A stretch of DNA of 64,000 nucleotides from Microbacterium sp. Gd 4-13 (GTDB taxonomy: Bacteria > Actinomycetota > Actinomycetes > Actinomycetales > Microbacteriaceae), in contig NZ_QEIJ01000005.1 in the NCBI RefSeq assembly GCF_003095395.1, positions 1-64,000 on the forward strand, given 5' to 3'. The notes under the pieces were generated by a model that was not told the origin of the DNA, did not search any database, and was given only the letters and a program-made list of their open reading frames with translations. Below, piece after piece: positions 13,393-21,016 of the stretch (positions are counted from its first letter, which is position 1; each line of letters opens with the position of its first letter). The translations under genes and the position numbers were made by a program.

Positions 13393-14286
13393 AGCAACGA
13401 CCGGCACGCCCGCGGCGAGCGCCTCCATCGCGGCGAGACCGAAGCCCTCTTTCGTCGAGACGAAGCCCAGCACGGTGGCCCCCGCCACGAGAGACGGCAC
13501 GTCGCCATCGGCAAGCGTGCCGAGGATGGTCGGCTCGATCCCGAGCTCGACCGCGCGCCGCTCGAATTCCCGGCGGTAGGAGCGGTAGTCGAAGAGAGTC
13601 TCCCCACCCCCGAAGACGAGACGCAGTTCCGGCCTCCTGCTCCGCAGCGTCGCGAAAGCCTCGAGCAGATCGAGCGAACCCTTGCGCGGCTCGATCCCGC
13701 CCAGAGCGAGCACGTAGTCCCCCAGGTCGGCGCGCCAGCGCGCGCGCAGCGCTTCTCCGGCCGGCCCCGCAGCATCCGCGAAACGTTCGGCGTCGACGCC
13801 GTTCGAGATCACGGTGGGCGCGTACCCGTACTCGGCCTCGACTTCGGCGGCGACGGCACGCGAGACGCAGATGCGGGCCGCCGGTCGATGGATGGCGAGT
13901 TCGTGACACTCGACGAGTCTCGGTGTGGTGAACGCGTCGAGGTGATGGATGGTCCGGATGCACTCACGGCCCGCCGCGATCACCGCGTTCGCCGAGATGC
14001 AGTCCTGCGCGTGCACCACATCGGCGCTGCTCGAGAAGTGCCGTGCCATGGCGCCGATCGAGCGCTCGATGCGCTCACCGACGCCTTCGCCCTCACGCGA
14101 CTCGAAGGGAACGACGCGAACGCGCACCGCCGGGTCGACCTCTCGGAAGAAGGCCGTGTCGGACCCGCGGCCGAGAGTCCACACCTCGACGTCGTTGCCG
14201 CGGGCGGCGAGAGCCTCCGCCAGGGCCAGAGTGTGAACGACGCCGCCGCGCGGCTTGGTCGAGTACGTGACCTGGGCGATCTTCAT
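13393..14286 (-). pseudogene. MSMEG_0565-family glycosyltransferase (GT4-like), 3'-truncated
   Basis: The first 298 residues match the glycosyltransferase family that accompanies Nit1C-type nitrilase clusters: [122 protein letters not shown]. Relatives are about 390 residues, so roughly the last 90 (rest of the nucleotide-sugar-binding half) are gone. The frame continues to a stop at 12646 antisense to the phosphoketolase fragment, giving a possible chimeric tail. ATG 14286 overlaps the stop of the upstream gene (ATGA). Last gene of the operon starting at 20773. Confidence 0.85.
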
Positions 14287-15137
14287 GGCGCGGTCAGCCG
14301 GTAGGCGTGCTCCGCGCGCTGGTCGAGGTGGTTGAGGCTGCGACGAGCTCGTGCACGGGATGCTGCGACATCCGCCTCGGCGACGGCGAGACCCCCCTTC
14401 GCCCACGTCTTCGCGATGATCTCGCCGGCCGGGTCGACGATCTTCGCCTGGCCGAGGAATCGCAGGCCGCCCATGACGCCCGTCTGGTTGGACGACACGA
14501 GATAGACCTGGTTCTCGGCCGCCCGCGCGCAGTCGTACAGATCGAACAGGTGGGCCTGCCGGTCGTTGCGGATGCGATCGGAGCGGTCGGTGACACTCGC
14601 GGGCCACGCGCTCAAGCAGGCGAGGATCTCGGCGCCGTCGAGCGCGAGCGATCGCGCGGACTCGGGGAAGGTCTTGTCGAAGTCGATAAGCATGCCCAGC
14701 CGCCCGACGGGGGTGTCGAACGCCGAGAACTCGTCGCCCGCGCGATAGACGTCGGACTCGCCGAGCGGAAGATGCACCTTGCGGTGCGCACCCAGGATGC
14801 CGTCGCCCGTCACACAGACGGCGGTGTTGTACCTGACCTCGGCACCGTCGATGACCGCGCGCTCGGCCACCCCGAAGCACACCGTCATCTGCCCGGCCAT
14901 GGCGGCGACGGCCGCGACCTCCGGCCCGTCGAGGTCGACCGACCGCGGCGCGCTGTCGACGGCGTGCGAGGGGTGCTCGAGCTCGAGCAGATATCCGCCG
15001 ATCGTCGCATCGGGAAGGACGAGCAGATCCACACCTCTCTCACGAGCGTGATCGATGATGCCGGGCAGCTTGGCGAGGGTGCGATCGACGTCGCGGCCGA
15101 AGTGCGCCGCGACCCCCGCCATCGTCACTGTGCCCAT
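14283..15137 (-). CDS. Nitrilase-superfamily paralog with altered Glu-Lys-Cys triad (MSMEG_0566-like)
   Basis: 284 residues, alignable along its length with the nitrilase at 17620 of the same operon. The triad of the superfamily is changed: the Glu of PEAAIGGY is Asp43 here ([10 protein letters not shown]), the Lys is kept (Lys120, [10 protein letters not shown]), and the nucleophilic Cys of QICYDK is Asp152 ([11 protein letters not shown]). It therefore should not act as a Cys-dependent nitrilase; it may be a regulatory or structural partner or use another chemistry. ATG 15137 is preceded by CTGAGGCA. It is translationally coupled to the glycosyltransferase downstream and follows the flavin oxidoreductase by 32 bases. 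Confidence 0.85.
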
Positions 15138-15169: not shown

Positions 15170-16429
15170 TCAGGCGACGGGAATCTGCTGCTGTTCGCGC
15201 ACGGCGATCCTGCCCGCGACGTGCTCGGCATCACGGGCGATCGCGTGGAAGCGACCGGATCCCCACGTATGCATCCAGGGGAGGCCGATGAAGAAGAACC
15301 CGGGCACCTTCGACTCCCCGTACGTGTGCAGGGGATGACCCTGGTGGTCGAGGACGTCGAGGTTGCCGAGCCAGGACCAGTCCGCGCGGAAGCCGATCGC
15401 CCAGATCACTGATGCGACGTCGGCGGTTGCAAGCTGGCGAGGCACCTCGGTCGGCTGCCACACCGCGCTGTACCGTTCCTCTTCCGGGGCGTGGATCTCC
15501 TCACGCTCGATGTACCGGTCGATGTCGTTCTTGATCGACTCGGCTACCGAGTCGGCGTAGTCGAGATTGTCGGGCAGAGTGTCGTCGAACAGGAAGGCGC
15601 TGTCCGTGAGACCGACGGCGCGGCCGTAGAGACGTACACCGCGCACGGCGAACTGGCGCAGATCGATGTCACGACCGCCGTCGCGGCCGGTGACGTAGTG
15701 GTTCGTCGATTCGCGCTTGGCGAGCCCGTGGGCCGAGACCGGCACGTCGTAGATGCCCATCTCGGCGAGCCACGTCATGCAGTCCTTCCCGCGGTAGAAG
15801 CGGGCGACCCGGGGCGCGCGACCCAGCGCGAGGTGAACGTCGCGACCCTCGAGCAGGAGGTCCTCCGCGATCTGCGTGCCGGACTGACCCGACCCGACCA
15901 CCAGGACGGGGCCCTCGGGCAGTTGAGCGGCGTTGCGGTACTCGTGCGAGTGCAGCTGGAAGACGTCGCCGGGGATCTCGCGCGCCCACGCGGGCGTGAC
16001 GGGAAGGTGATATCCGCCCGTGGCGGAGGTGACCGTGTCGGCGGTGAGGGTGCCCGCGCTCGTGCGCACCGTGAACCCCCCGCCGGGGCGCTCCTCGACC
16101 AGAGAGACCGAGACCCCCTCCGCGACCGGCGCATCGAACGTGTCGGCGTAGTTCCTCGTCCACGCGTAGACCTCATCGCGTGCCATGAAGCCGTCGGGGT
16201 CGGGGCCGTCGTAGGGATAGCCGGGCAGACGGCACTGCCAGTTCGGTGTCACCAGGGTGAAGTTGTCCCAGCGGCCGTCTCGCCACTCGTGCACGAGCGT
16301 GTCACGCTCGATCACCACGTGACGGACGCCCTGCTGGACGAGATGCCAGCTCAGGGCGAGACCCGCCTGGCCCCCGCCGACGATGACGGCCTCGAAGTGA
16401 TCGCCGTCGTTCAGCGCGACCGGGATCAC
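15170..16429 (-). CDS. nitH: MSMEG_0569-family flavin-dependent oxidoreductase
   Basis: 419 residues, flavin monooxygenase-like. Two Rossmann motifs: VGGGQAGLALSWHL near the N-terminus for FAD and VVGSGQSGTQIAEDLL near 190 for NADPH; further family features are WDNFTLVTPNWQCRLPGYPY, ATGGYHLPVTP and VIWAIGFRADWSWL. This is the flavoprotein of Nit1C clusters (nitH). GTG start at 16429 overlaps the stop of the preceding small gene (GTGA). In these clusters it is presumed to oxidise a substrate or product of the nitrilase; the reaction is not established. Confidence 0.9.
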   Translation of the reverse strand: MIPVALNDGDHFEAVIVGGGQAGLALSWHLVQQGVRHVVIERDTLVHEWRDGRWDNFTLVTPNWQCRLPGYPYDGPDPDGFMARDEVYAWTRNYADTFDAPVAEGVSVSLVEERPGGGFTVRTSAGTLTADTVTSATGGYHLPVTPAWAREIPGDVFQLHSHEYRNAAQLPEGPVLVVGSGQSGTQIAEDLLLEGRDVHLALGRAPRVARFYRGKDCMTWLAEMGIYDVPVSAHGLAKRESTNHYVTGRDGGRDIDLRQFAVRGVRLYGRAVGLTDSAFLFDDTLPDNLDYADSVAESIKNDIDRYIEREEIHAPEEERYSAVWQPTEVPRQLATADVASVIWAIGFRADWSWLGNLDVLDHQGHPLHTYGESKVPGFFFIGLPWMHTWGSGRFHAIARDAEHVAGRIAVREQQQIPVA

Positions 16430-16725
16430 GATGCGGCTCCCTCGAGGCCGGGCTGCATAGCGACGACCACGACCTCGCCGGCCGCGTACGCGGAAGCGGC
16501 GGTCGCGATGGTCTCCTCCGAGTGCATCGCCGAGGTGCAGGCGAATCCGTACCTGGCCCGCACCCGCTCACTGGCGATGGCGAGTGCCTCACTCGTGCGA
16601 CCGACGAAGTCCGAGAGCGTGTACCGCTCCCCCACCCGCAGATAGTCGTGCATGACGAGACTCGGTGAATAGTGCGACGTCTGTTGGCCGTCGGGCCAAC
16701 GCACGGCGAAAGTCATCTCAGGCAT
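16426..16725 (-). CDS. nitG: MSMEG_0570-family nitrogen starvation response protein
   Basis: 99 residues; MPEMTFAVRWPDGQQ and YSPSLVMHDYLRVGERY with ASERVRARYGFACTSAMHS are characteristic of the small conserved protein (nitG) found only with Nit1C-type clusters. The start ATG 16725 lies 8 bases inside the end of the nitrilase gene, so the two are coupled; the longer open frame to 17484 would run inside that gene. Function unknown; no catalytic motif beyond a single Cys is seen. Confidence 0.88.
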   Translation of the reverse strand: MPEMTFAVRWPDGQQTSHYSPSLVMHDYLRVGERYTLSDFVGRTSEALAIASERVRARYGFACTSAMHSEETIATAASAYAAGEVVVVAMQPGLEGAAS

Positions 16726-17620
16726 GAGCCAGCTCCCTCCAGCGTGTCGCGCTGTCACCGTCGGTCGCGGTGACCGGGCCATAGACGTCGGGCCGGCGGT
16801 CGCGCAGATGGAACATCCCCCCGCGCATCGCTCGGAACGTGTCGTCGATGTCGATCTCGGCGACGGCGAGGCCCGCGCCGAGCAGCGTCGTGGCGATGAT
16901 GTTGCCGCCGGGGTCGACGACCTTCGCGTTGCCGACGTAGCGCAGCGACCCGAACGTGCCCGACTGGTTGGACGCCATCCAGAACACCTGGTTGTCCAGC
17001 GCCCGGGCGATGTCGAACTGGTTGAACCGGTAGGTCCAGCGGTCGTCCTGCAGGTTCTCCGCCGTCGCGGTGCGTGCGGCCGGCCAGGCCGACATGCTGA
17101 CGACGATCTCGGCGCCGTCGAGTGCCAGCATCCGCGCAGCCTCAGGGAACGCCTTGTCGTAGCAGATCTGCATCCCCACCCGACCCACCGGGGTGTCGAA
17201 CGCGGTGTACGTCGAGCCGGCCGAGTACGACATGTTCTCGCCCAGGGGCTGATGCACCTTGCGGTACGAACCGTAGATGCGCTCGCCGTCGAGGCAGACC
17301 GCGGCGTTGTACCGCGTCTGCCCGTCATCATCCAGCTCGCAGAACCCGATGGTGAGGATCGTGTCGCCGGCGAGCTCCTGCACCCGCCTGATCTCGGGTC
17401 CGTCCAACCGGATCGCAGGCGGGAGAGAGCGTCGGGTGTTCTGGATGGTATCGCCGTGGTTGCCGAGCGAGGAGAGGTAGCCACCGATGGCGGCTTCGGG
17501 GAACGCGACGAGGCGGGCTCCCTGAGCTCGCGCGTCTTCGAGCAGCTGCTCGATCAGCGCGTAGTTCTGAGCGAGGTCCCGCGTGAAGTTCGCCGAGACC
17601 GATGCGACGGTGACAGACAT
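16718..17620 (-). CDS. nitC: Nit6803/Nit1C-type nitrilase
   Basis: 300 residues; converts nitriles to carboxylate and ammonia. The superfamily triad is complete: Glu42 (AFPEAAIGGYL), Lys121 (SYRKVHQPLGE), Cys153 (MQICYDKAFPE). The close match to the cyanobacterial Nit6803 pattern and the gene neighbours identify it as nitC, the enzyme linked in other bacteria to growth on cyanide or nitriles as nitrogen source. ATG 17620 is seven bases after the stop of nitB, with TAAGG upstream. It is the probable core activity of the operon. Confidence 0.93.
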   Translation of the reverse strand: MSVTVASVSANFTRDLAQNYALIEQLLEDARAQGARLVAFPEAAIGGYLSSLGNHGDTIQNTRRSLPPAIRLDGPEIRRVQELAGDTILTIGFCELDDDGQTRYNAAVCLDGERIYGSYRKVHQPLGENMSYSAGSTYTAFDTPVGRVGMQICYDKAFPEAARMLALDGAEIVVSMSAWPAARTATAENLQDDRWTYRFNQFDIARALDNQVFWMASNQSGTFGSLRYVGNAKVVDPGGNIIATTLLGAGLAVAEIDIDDTFRAMRGGMFHLRDRRPDVYGPVTATDGDSATRWRELAHA

Positions 17621-17627
17621 CCGTGCC

Positions 17628-18155
17628 TTAGAGGTTGTAGGTGGAGTTGATGATCGCGCCCTTGCGGGCGTAGTAGATCAGCGCGTCCTGCACGTCCAGC
17701 GGGTGCGCGGGGACGACACCCTCGATGAGGTCTTCCTCGCGCATGCCGTGCAGCGCCATGCCGAAGCGGCAGCAGTAGACCGTGCCGCCCTCCTTGATGA
17801 AGGTCTCGAGCGAGCCGTTCATGTTCAACTCCCCCGGGAAGCCGGAGTCGCCCGTCGTCGGGAAGCCGCGATTCGCCGTGCAGGCGAGCGTGCCCGGGCC
17901 GTAGAAGTAGATCGCCGACTCGAAGCCCTTTCGAAGGGCCCGCGTGGCCTGCAGGATCGCGACGAAGCTGACCGAAGACTCGTGCGGGATGCCGTGGATC
18001 AAGGTGAAGTAGGTCTCGCCGTCCTCGGCCTGGAAGTCGGGGAAGATCTTGGTCGACCCGTAGATGTTGGTCCCCTTGGGGAGCGAGGGGTGGGGGATCT
18101 CGCCGAGGGACGTGGCGATGTTCTCGGCGATCTGGGCGTCGATGTCTTCAGGCAT
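17628..18155 (-). CDS. nitB: MSMEG_0572-family nitrogen starvation response protein
   Basis: 175 residues, matching the conserved nitB protein that normally precedes the nitrilase gene. Segments such as GTNIYGSTKIFPDFQAEDG, FTLIHGIPHESSVSFVAILQ, GFPTTGDSGFPGELN and GTVYCCRFGMALHGM are highly conserved-looking; the central part has the feel of a DsrE-like fold with a CC pair. No signal peptide. Start ATG 18155 has only a weak purine stretch (AAAGAG) upstream. The 106-bp gap before it contains a repeated ATCGAA word and may hold an internal promoter. Confidence 0.88.
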   Translation of the reverse strand: MPEDIDAQIAENIATSLGEIPHPSLPKGTNIYGSTKIFPDFQAEDGETYFTLIHGIPHESSVSFVAILQATRALRKGFESAIYFYGPGTLACTANRGFPTTGDSGFPGELNMNGSLETFIKEGGTVYCCRFGMALHGMREEDLIEGVVPAHPLDVQDALIYYARKGAIINSTYNL

Positions 18156-18261: not shown

Positions 18262-19677
18262 TTACGAAGCGGCGGAACCGAGGCCGGTCGCTGCACCATC
18301 GCACGCCACGGTCTCGACGCCGTCGGGCCACCGCAGCCGCACGTCCGTCCCGGTGTCGAGCGTTCCGATGACGGCGGTCTCGGCGATGCGCGACGCCGTG
18401 CGAGAGCGTCCCGGACGGTCGGCCGTCAGCATCCCGAACCCGGGAAAACATGTCAGCCAGTCGCCGAACGCGACGTCATCGGGCGCGGGGATCGCGGAGA
18501 CGTCGAGCGTGAGGCCGGTACCCGATGCCTCGGCGAGCATCGCGGCGCTGCCGACGATGCCGCCCATGCTGACGTCCTTCGCCGCGGCGGGGCGGGCTCG
18601 ACGGACGATCGCGCCGAGCTCGCGCAGCTCGGCCCCGGTGCGTGCCGAAGTGGTGTCCCACTGCTTGCCCTCGAACCCTCGGCGCCAGCGCCCGCGGAGA
18701 TCGACGGTGAGACTGAGGTCGTCGCCCGCGCGTCCGCCGCCTCCCGGCACCGGCCGCTTGGTTCGTCCGAGTGCGGTCACCGAGAGCGACGACGCGACGC
18801 CGAGCTGGGTGTGTCCGCCGAGGATAGGAACGCCCCAGGCGTCCGCCCCGCTGCGCAGACCCCCGAGGATGCGACGGGCGAACGACGCGGTCGGTGCCGC
18901 GACCGCGTCGAGCAGCCCGACCGGCTTCGCACCCATCGCCGACAGATCGTTCATGTTGACCAGCACGGCGCACCATCCCGCCCACTCGGGGTCGCGCTCG
19001 ACCATCGCCGGCAGAATCGCGTCGCACGCGGCGACCACGTCTGTTCCGTGGAGGGGGACCCCATCGTCGCCGACGTAGCCGGAACCGCCGAGAGCACCCG
19101 GGTCATCGCCGCGCAGCGCGCCGATGAGCTCGCCGAGCGGGCCCTTGGTCGCCTGCAGGAGTCGCTGGATGCGGTCGATGGGCCAGCGCATGCGCACGTG
19201 GGCGGATCCGCCGATCGATGCGCGCCCCCAGGTCTGCCATCCGAGGTGACGGAACAGCGGTTCGTTGCGCTCCTGCACGGTCGCCTCGAATCGGAGCACC
19301 CCCTGGGAGAGTGCGGTGGCGCAGGCCTCTCGTACGAGCGCGGAGCCGATGCCGCCCGCTCCGCGGGCGTCACGCCGCACCACGAGACGGCTGCCCGTCC
19401 ACCACCCGATGTCGCGTCCTTCGACCGCCGGAGCGATTCGCACGCCCCCCAGAACGACTCCCTCCCGGTCGATGCAGACGAGCACGATGGTGCGCGGGTC
19501 GTCGTCGATCCGGTCCGCGTCATCGGCGTCGAAGATGCCCTGCTCGGCGACGAAGACCTCGCGCCGGATCGCACGGTAGTCGTCGATCTGGCCGCTCGTC
19601 GCCCGCGCAATGCGCCAGGCGGTCCGGTCACGAGCCGCCTCGGGGGCGAGGCCGGTGATGAGCGGGACGTCGAGCAT
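18262..19677 (-). CDS. nitEF: GNAT acetyltransferase-AIR synthase fusion (MSMEG_0567 / sll0787 families)
   Basis: 471 residues in two parts. Residues about 18-170 are a GNAT N-acetyltransferase (AIRREVFVAEQGIF, GSRLVVRRDARGAGGIGSALVREA, ERNEPLFRHLGW). Residues about 175-471 resemble AIR-synthase (PurM)-type ATP-binding enzymes (HGTDVVAACDAILPAM, VNMNDLSAMGAKPVGLLDAV, ILGGHTQLGV, AAAKDVSMGGIVGSAAML). In many Nit1C clusters these are separate genes, nitE and nitF; here they are fused. ATG 19677 is one base after the stop of the radical SAM gene. Substrates unknown. Confidence 0.9.
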   Translation of the reverse strand: MLDVPLITGLAPEAARDRTAWRIARATSGQIDDYRAIRREVFVAEQGIFDADDADRIDDDPRTIVLVCIDREGVVLGGVRIAPAVEGRDIGWWTGSRLVVRRDARGAGGIGSALVREACATALSQGVLRFEATVQERNEPLFRHLGWQTWGRASIGGSAHVRMRWPIDRIQRLLQATKGPLGELIGALRGDDPGALGGSGYVGDDGVPLHGTDVVAACDAILPAMVERDPEWAGWCAVLVNMNDLSAMGAKPVGLLDAVAAPTASFARRILGGLRSGADAWGVPILGGHTQLGVASSLSVTALGRTKRPVPGGGGRAGDDLSLTVDLRGRWRRGFEGKQWDTTSARTGAELRELGAIVRRARPAAAKDVSMGGIVGSAAMLAEASGTGLTLDVSAIPAPDDVAFGDWLTCFPGFGMLTADRPGRSRTASRIAETAVIGTLDTGTDVRLRWPDGVETVACDGAATGLGSAAS

Positions 19678-19678
19678 G

Positions 19679-20773
19679 TCAGGCGCCCGCCGTCTTCAGC
19701 GCGCTGCAGGCGCCGCACGCCACGCAGCCCGCCCGCTGGTCCTCGCCGCGCATCCCCGCCGCGGTGAGCAGGTCCGCGACGCGCGTCGTCACCGAGTCGA
19801 GCACGGATCGGTGCGGGGCCGGCACCTTGTCGACGTCGGTGGCGAGGGTGCCTTTGAGGGGACGGAAGGGCACGACGAAGGGGTACACCCCCATCTCGAT
19901 GAGCTCGCGCGCGCCGTCGACGAGTTCGTCGGGGTCCTCCCCCATGCCGACGAGGAGATAGGTGGAGACCTGGTTGAAGCCGAACACGCGCACCGCCTCG
20001 CGCCACGCCGCCCGATACTCGTCCATGCTCACGCGCGACTTGCCCGGCATCCACTTCCGGCGTACGTCGTCGTCCATCGATTCGACGTGGATGCCGATCG
20101 AGCGGGCTCCCGCGTCGTACAGGTCGGTGATCGCCCGCAGATCGGCGGGCGGCTCGCACTGCACCTGGATCTCGAGCCCCGGAACCGCCTTCTTGACCGC
20201 GCGCACGCATCGCGCGAGGTGCTTGGCGCCGCGGTCCCAGCCGTTGGAGGTACCCGTGGTCATGACCATGCTCGTGATGCCGTCCAGCCGCACAGCCGCC
20301 TCGGCGACCTCGGCGAGCATCGCGGGGGTCTTCACCGCGATCGTGAGTCCGGCATCGAGCGATGCTTCGATCGCACAGAACCGGCACCGTTCGCTCTCGT
20401 CATAACGTACGCAGGTCTGCACGACGGTCGTCGCCAGCACGTTGCGCCCGTGGAGCTTGGCGATCTTCTCGTAGTTGACCCCGTCGGCCGTCTCGAGATC
20501 GTAGAACTTCGGCCTCACCACGGGCTGCACATCGAAGCCGAGGTCGGCGCCCTCGAAGGTGAGCCTGCCACTGGAGCTCACGACATAGGGGCTCGAAGGA
20601 TTGAGCGGGATCGCAGCGCCCTCGCCGTTTATGATGAAGTGGCCGTCGTCACTGGGCCCCGCACCCCCGGATCGCCGGACCGGCGCGTCACTGCGTACGC
20701 CGAGCAGCGCGATGTTCACGCGTGTCGAGACGTGGGCGGCGGTGTCGGTCGGAGCAGCCGATGCGGGAGTCAT
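19679..20773 (-). CDS. nitD: MSMEG_0568-family radical SAM protein
   Basis: 364 residues, first gene of the Nit1C operon. The putative iron-sulfur motif is atypical: Cys121-x8-Cys130-x2-Cys133 (TCVRYDESERCRFC) rather than Cx3Cx2C, as is usual for this family. Later elements VMTTGTSNGWDRGAKHL, QCEPPADLRAI, GIHVESMDDDVRRKWMPG and STYLLVGMGEDPDELV fit a radical SAM barrel. A C-terminal Cys350-x2-Cys353-x2-Cys356 (CVACGACS) could hold a second cluster. ATG 20773 follows CTGGAG. The 240 bp upstream, up to the divergent gene at 21017, must contain the operon promoter. Confidence 0.9.
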   Translation of the reverse strand: MTPASAAPTDTAAHVSTRVNIALLGVRSDAPVRRSGGAGPSDDGHFIINGEGAAIPLNPSSPYVVSSSGRLTFEGADLGFDVQPVVRPKFYDLETADGVNYEKIAKLHGRNVLATTVVQTCVRYDESERCRFCAIEASLDAGLTIAVKTPAMLAEVAEAAVRLDGITSMVMTTGTSNGWDRGAKHLARCVRAVKKAVPGLEIQVQCEPPADLRAITDLYDAGARSIGIHVESMDDDVRRKWMPGKSRVSMDEYRAAWREAVRVFGFNQVSTYLLVGMGEDPDELVDGARELIEMGVYPFVVPFRPLKGTLATDVDKVPAPHRSVLDSVTTRVADLLTAAGMRGEDQRAGCVACGACSALKTAGA

Positions 20774-21016
20774 GACTCCAGTAGACGGACATCCTGTTTC
20801 GGTGTGGCTACGAACGGATAGCGACCGTGTTTCCGCCCGAGAAGTTTGCGTTTCGTCGAGGCGAGCCGTCGCGCCTGTGGAGGACTCGTCGCGCTCCCGC
20901 CGAGATGCGGGCAATCGGTCGGCGCGCGGGCCGATCCCCCGCCTCCCAACGAGGCCCGCGCCTTCCTCCCCCGCGCGACGGATGTGGGCCCCGGTGCCGC
21001 TGGCTAGCGTGAAGGC

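Follow-up and report, generated by a model that had tools for sequence, protein, structure and literature searches.

A nitrilase-fold paralogue without the catalytic cysteine, possibly a ligand-binding accessory, in actinobacterial Nit1C-type gene clusters

Introduction

Nitrilases and amidases work through a thioimidate or thioester intermediate and need a catalytic Cys to form it. One operon in which such proteins occur is Nit1C, which in the available portions of the reports comprises seven genes, one of them a nitrilase (PMC1199592), and whose NitC has been tied to cyanide assimilation in Pseudomonas (PMC11049912). A related arrangement is the gpr operon of Mycobacterium smegmatis (MSMEG_0565-0572), which the accessible text of PMC6039565 describes as GlnR-induced and needed for peroxide resistance, and which has a published phenotype but no known chemistry. 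In the same text MSMEG_0566 figures as a putative aliphatic amidase with a possible part in nitrogen assimilation, and both MSMEG_0571 and MSMEG_0566 are given as induced on nitrogen limitation in the portions available of two further reports (PMC4617892, PMC4222082).

Here we describe a cluster of this kind from Microbacterium sp. Gd 4-13, in a stretch of 64,000 nucleotides (contig NZ_QEIJ01000005.1, positions 1 to 64,000; hereafter the window) that holds two paralogous CN hydrolases, A and B. In many actinobacteria B accompanies an ordinary-looking enzyme of the nitrilase type within a gene cluster for nitrogen starvation. It is clearly kept for some purpose, and we ask here what that purpose might be.

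Results

The gene cluster in the window

The cluster genes lie on the minus strand in the order 0568, 0567, 0572, A, 0570, 0569, B and 0565 (Table 1). Six Nit1C neighbour families (TIGR04044, 04043, 04045, 04050, 04042 and 04046) all score above their cut-offs in the window, and the sll0787-type AIRS model TIGR04049 scores below its own; by these profile matches the cluster is of the actinobacterial Nit1C type, built from the MSMEG_0565-0572 families. The label MSMEG_0566 that an earlier note on this DNA had given to B agrees with synteny, as Mycobacterium sp. Root135 (L196) shows the order 0572-A-0570-0569-0568-0567-B-0565, with a B of the D-K-D type. The naming of A as NitC in that note is not supported, since A reaches 34.1 bits against the Nit6803/NitC model TIGR04048, whose cut-off is 502.6 (B, 33.7 bits), and the window cluster holds no subfamily 1 (Nit6803-type) nitrilase, one of the marks of Nit1C.

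Table 1. Cluster genes and key codons of B, in window coordinates
Feature	Position	Strand	Basis
MSMEG_0565 family glycosyltransferase, truncated	13393..14286	-	TIGR04047 positions 1-305 of 373
B: CN-hydrolase paralogue lacking the catalytic Cys (D43/K120/E127/D152), at the MSMEG_0566 position	14283..15137	-	ORF; PF00795 132.3 bits; residues; predicted fold
D152 codon of B, replacing catalytic Cys	14682..14684	-	D 123, S 2 of 125
K120 codon of B, invariant among B	14778..14780	-	125/125
D43 codon of B; Glu in A and in EKC relatives	15009..15011	-	residue comparison
MSMEG_0569 family flavin-dependent oxidoreductase	15170..16429	-	TIGR04046 582.5 bits, cut-off 498.35
MSMEG_0570 family small protein	16429..16725	-	TIGR04042 121.1 bits, cut-off 79.85
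A: paralogous CN hydrolase, intact E42/K121/C153, MSMEG_0571 position	16718..17620	-	ORF, profiles, residues
MSMEG_0572/Sll0783 family protein	17628..18155	-	TIGR04044 243.1 bits, cut-off 109.85
MSMEG_0567: GNAT and AIR-synthase-like fusion	18262..19677	-	TIGR04050 437.5 and TIGR04045 108.6 bits, both above cut-off
MSMEG_0568 family radical SAM protein, start putative	19679..20908	-	TIGR04043 501.7 bits, cut-off 303.7; stretch scored begins at 20908

Two details of the cluster concern gene ends. The TGA stop of A sits within the start of the 0570 gene (window 16718-16725), and TGA is the stop codon in 116 of the 123 A genes; overlapping start and stop codons are a simpler reading of this TGA than the selenocysteine proposed for MSMEG_0571 in the accessible text of PMC6039565. 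The glycosyltransferase breaks off at profile position 305 of 373, at window 13392/13393, and a convergent phosphoketolase gene ends at the same junction, at XFP_N position 190 of 364. Five relatives of the glycosyltransferase span 367-380 aa between the aligned start and their stop, no second XFP_N match was found in this genome, and the junction common to the two truncated genes has the look of a deletion or of a join made during assembly.

Catalytic positions of B across the family

B encodes 284 aa, is 46% identical to A and belongs by profile to the nitrilase (CN hydrolase) superfamily, far above the PF00795 gathering cut-off of 23.2 bits. Direct residue comparison bears out the reading of its active site in the earlier note: B has D43/K120/D152 where A has E42, K121 and C153 (contexts LVAFPEAAIGG, YGSYRKVHQPL and VGMQICYDKAF, respectively), so that the Glu-Lys-Cys triad of catalytic superfamily members is absent. 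For a family-wide view we assigned sequences to A or B by which window protein each resembles more, without use of the residues in question, and pooled them. Left out of the pool were duplicates, sequences interrupted by stops or shorter than 200 aa, the short loci L006-L077 and six relatives set apart as basal (L102-L107).

Asp occupies position 152 in 123 of the 125 distinct B sequences, and the other two (L093 and L094) have Ser there. Position 43 is Asp in 113, Gly in seven, His in four and Gln in one, Lys120 is found in all and Glu127 in 124; neither Cys152 nor Glu43 occurs in any of them, so the Cys in close relatives that the earlier note had named as the sign of a sequencing error was not found. 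With these states in B, and with Glu, Lys, Glu and Cys at the four positions in all 126 distinct A sequences, the substitution lies far beyond chance. Among the short loci, His43 occurs in six of family f87 and Ser152 in two of g17, and Cys in none of the B type. A search of 299 genomes from the family of the window at E 1e-60 finds matches to B in 22, with two copies apiece; 20 of these genomes carry a D-K-D version of the B copy and the other two a D-K-S version. At E 1e-50 we found B matches in 9/396 genomes of a phylum sample and 19/396 of an order sample, the genome of the window being counted in each. Named species genomes scanned with a profile built from 26 B proteins yielded 562 pattern matches, of which 492 are relatives; the best 80 matches are all from Actinomycetota records. 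On a tree built without both columns, parsimony counts six changes at position 43 and three at position 152, changes towards six outgroup rows included, which indicates that position 43 of B drifts more. As a refinement of the reading in the earlier note, Asp is very nearly fixed across the family at position 152, and position 43 holds Gly, His or Gln in some B sequences.

Selection and predicted fold

Within Microbacteriaceae and near relatives the median dN/dS is 0.177 for B (153 pairs) and 0.139 for A (135 pairs), values that place B under purifying selection. The pocket set, consisting of sequence neighbourhoods of the catalytic residues chosen by hand and not from coordinates, has a pocket-to-rest entropy ratio of 0.61 in B and 0.65 in A, and only 11 of 10000 random position sets were as conserved as that of B; by this measure the pocket region of B is as constrained as that of A. 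A structure model of B (pLDDT 89.0, pTM 0.90) confidently predicts the alpha-beta-beta-alpha nitrilase fold, its best match being the Pyrococcus amidase 6ypa (Z 34.8, rmsd 1.7 A over 255 residues). As regards the spiral nitrilase filament envisaged in the earlier note, a helical oligomer that would form through extra interface loops, median lengths are 285 aa for B (105 genes) and 298 aa for A (123 genes), and the solved chains of 3wuy and NIT4 have 349 and 361 residues. Together the dN/dS values, the pocket constraint and the confident model support the view, put forward in the earlier note, of a predicted fold retained without the thiol nucleophile, and speak against decay.

Distribution of A, B and Nit6803-type nitrilases

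The 0572 marker is present in 60 of 394 genomes of the class, of which 32 have A and B, 16 have A alone, 12 have neither and none has B alone; in the A-only genomes that were examined, all 16 except G1264, A has the Cys. For the 12 with neither gene, the eight whose locus was examined (L257-L264) have few or no other cluster genes nearby. Locus counts refer to 129 distinct loci, with 11 repeats dropped. A accompanies B in 95 of the 96 distinct B-bearing loci of at least 14 kb. The exception, L191, has its A on a different contig, beside an oxidoreductase gene, and A was found in seven of the seven genomes checked in this way. No Nit6803-type nitrilase above the TIGR04048 cut-off occurs in the 60 marker-positive genomes, nine of which have a weaker relative. 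This suggests that actinomycete clusters of this kind use A, or A and B, in place of Nit6803/NitC (48 of the 60). As to a possible link of B with the flavin oxidoreductase, that gene is present in 91/96 distinct loci with B and in 3/14 without, 11 of the loci without B being of one cluster kind from family f106; two B-bearing genomes (G667 and G1088) lack it genome-wide at E 1e-20, and some clusters without B have it.

Origin of the two paralogues

B forms one clade in two trees (support 98/94 and 100/96), and A forms a separate clade (96/89 and 94/90), or together with the single-nitrilase clusters L103 and L105 one supported at 92/92 and 92/89. Support for the deepest root is low (48/60). 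L105 and L106 score nearer to B than to A, yet fall outside the B clade in the tree. Because the six basal relatives (L102-L107) all have Glu, Lys and Cys, Glu/Cys is likely the ancestral state and Asp the derived one. A and B are found as neighbours in the order core genes-A-B-glycosyltransferase (for example in L177 and L188), and in several clusters without B (L238-L245) A directly precedes the glycosyltransferase, an arrangement that fits a tandem duplication as the origin of the pair. The single-A clusters might represent the state before this duplication, but in the tree they fall within the A clade, if weakly supported there (82/69), and loss of B in these clusters is likelier.

Is B a partner of A?

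Over the whole set the A-B distance correlation, 0.786, is the highest of 21 gene pairs, and it rises to 0.90 once the mycobacterial-type loci are left out. In 500 subsamples of 30 loci each, A came first among the partners of B 426 times by raw and 496 times by partial correlation. Within the two subgroups, however, the best raw partner of B is the oxidoreductase in one (0.83) and the radical SAM protein in the other (0.81), with A at 0.77 and 0.69. Moreover, in the clusters of L196 (Mycobacterium), L190 (Gordonia) and L099, A is of the Microbacteriaceae type, being 81-85% identical to that of L079, while B, at 62-66%, is not; here B, the glycosyltransferase, the radical SAM protein, the oxidoreductase and the GNAT/AIRS proteins lie at 57-70%, and the 0572 protein, which is conserved everywhere, at 78-81%. 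In the tree the A of these three loci is nested among A of Microbacteriaceae and Cellulomonas. It seems from these comparisons that in mycobacterial-type clusters A alone was swapped for a Microbacteriaceae-type xenologue, with B and the other genes native. L100 and L266 seem to show this replacement of A as well, the identities to Microbacteriaceae being given for the former three loci. With A of the Microbacteriaceae type and B not in L196, L190 and L099, a tightly co-adapted A-B interface is unlikely, and we therefore set aside the distance correlation as an argument for co-adaptation; given the swap and the better partners within subgroups, it is proof neither way. All 16 A proteins from clusters without B have R197, L207 and V228 (B numbering), which are specific to A, and these residues thus do not depend on the presence of B. 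Direct contact between A and B may nevertheless occur, and B may be a regulatory subunit as the earlier note suggested, the evidence being mixed.

Discussion

Without the Cys, B can form neither a thioimidate nor a thioester, which leaves no route to the hydrolysis of nitriles or amides by the established mechanism. In B an Asp has replaced the nucleophilic Cys, and the general-base Glu has given way to Asp or, in places, to Gly, His or Gln; the relaxation at position 43 fits the loss of the general-base role. The region around the pocket, where Lys120 is invariant and Glu127 and Asp152 are nearly so, remains under selection, and B therefore most likely continues to bind a pathway ligand; Asp152 would most simply pair with Lys120 in a salt bridge or with the ligand itself. 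That B occurs in no genome without A (0/60), together with the pocket constraint, suggests a non-hydrolytic accessory of A's pathway, its likeliest physical form being a subunit or companion that would bind the substrate or product of A and tune A or pass the compound on. This is our preferred explanation, in which B, an old and specialised paralogue of A, would act as a thiol-dead, ligand-binding accessory and possibly as a partner of A; we hold it about as likely as not. The near-fixed Asp152 counts against it, as an Asp in particular, and not just any residue other than Cys, exceeds what loss of function needs.

This same feature is what draws attention to B as a neofunctionalised enzyme, in which Asp152, with Lys120 and Glu127, would act as nucleophile or acid-base in the nitrilase fold. 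The conservation of all three residues, a pocket constraint equal to that of A, and the variation at position 43, whose role in thiol activation is needless for a carboxylate nucleophile, all speak for a new chemistry. However, two genomes have Ser152, an Asp152-Lys120 salt bridge would account for the conservation without any chemistry, and the literature searched, mostly in less than its full text, shows no superfamily member with an Asp nucleophile. Nor did this literature turn up a report of Asp substitution in a nitrilase or a study of the active-site residues in MSMEG_0566. We regard this alternative as a tentative possibility, and more doubtful still is its strong form, that B represents the first nitrilase-fold family with a natural Asp for the catalytic Cys and carries out novel chemistry on A's substrate or product; if true, the actinobacterial Nit1C/gpr pathway would have a step that nobody looked for.

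Two further explanations are weaker. B could be a ligand-binding carrier or sensor tied to the adjacent glycosyltransferase MSMEG_0565 and not to A, as its stop codon overlaps the glycosyltransferase ATG in the window (ATGA), in 89 of the 101 distinct loci where both are called the gene immediately downstream of B, on its strand and no more than 150 bases away, is the glycosyltransferase, and the partial distance correlation of the two is 0.28 overall and 0.47 and 0.32 in the two subgroups. Against this, the glycosyltransferase is kept in 13 of 14 distinct clusters without B, and the loci L113 and L251 contain B but lack the glycosyltransferase, which lies on other contigs of these genomes (G745 and G1342), and we think the link unlikely. 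That B is a decaying pseudogene, or the substitution a sequencing error, is hardly credible: nothing but the lost residues speaks for it, a change from Cys (TGC/TGT) to Asp (GAC/GAT) takes two base changes, and the purifying selection on B and the absence of Cys from 125 distinct sequences of many assemblies rule it out.

Taken as a fixed, pocket-conserved and thiol-dead paralogue, B would redirect experiments from an amidase assay towards a ligand trap for a metabolite of the pathway.

Comparison with known systems

MSMEG_0566 of the M. smegmatis gpr operon (PMC6039565) lies, like B, next to the glycosyltransferase, and L196 shows an identical gene order. One gene of this operon is termed an amidase though all B relatives examined are without the nucleophile, and if the M. 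smegmatis protein matches these relatives, the missing nucleophile contradicts the label. With Nit6803/NitC of Nit1C, A and B have in common the superfamily, the fold (3wuy matches the B model at Z 31.1) and the neighbouring Nit1C gene families, but by score they are not members (34 against 502.6 bits). The solved folds closest to B are the Pyrococcus amidase PH0642 and the hyperthermophilic nitrilase (1j31, 6ypa and 3ivz; 29-31% identity), which unlike B have a catalytic Cys, C146 by the title of 6ypa, where it was mutated in the laboratory. NIT4A and NIT4B of Poaceae are plant NIT4 proteins, unlike A and B, and no family-wide Cys loss is known among them. As far as the available portions of the reports go, these isoforms are active only as heteromers (PMC3537687, PMC6214922), and two paralogues working together in this way may serve, by analogy, as a precedent for paired nitrilase subunits.
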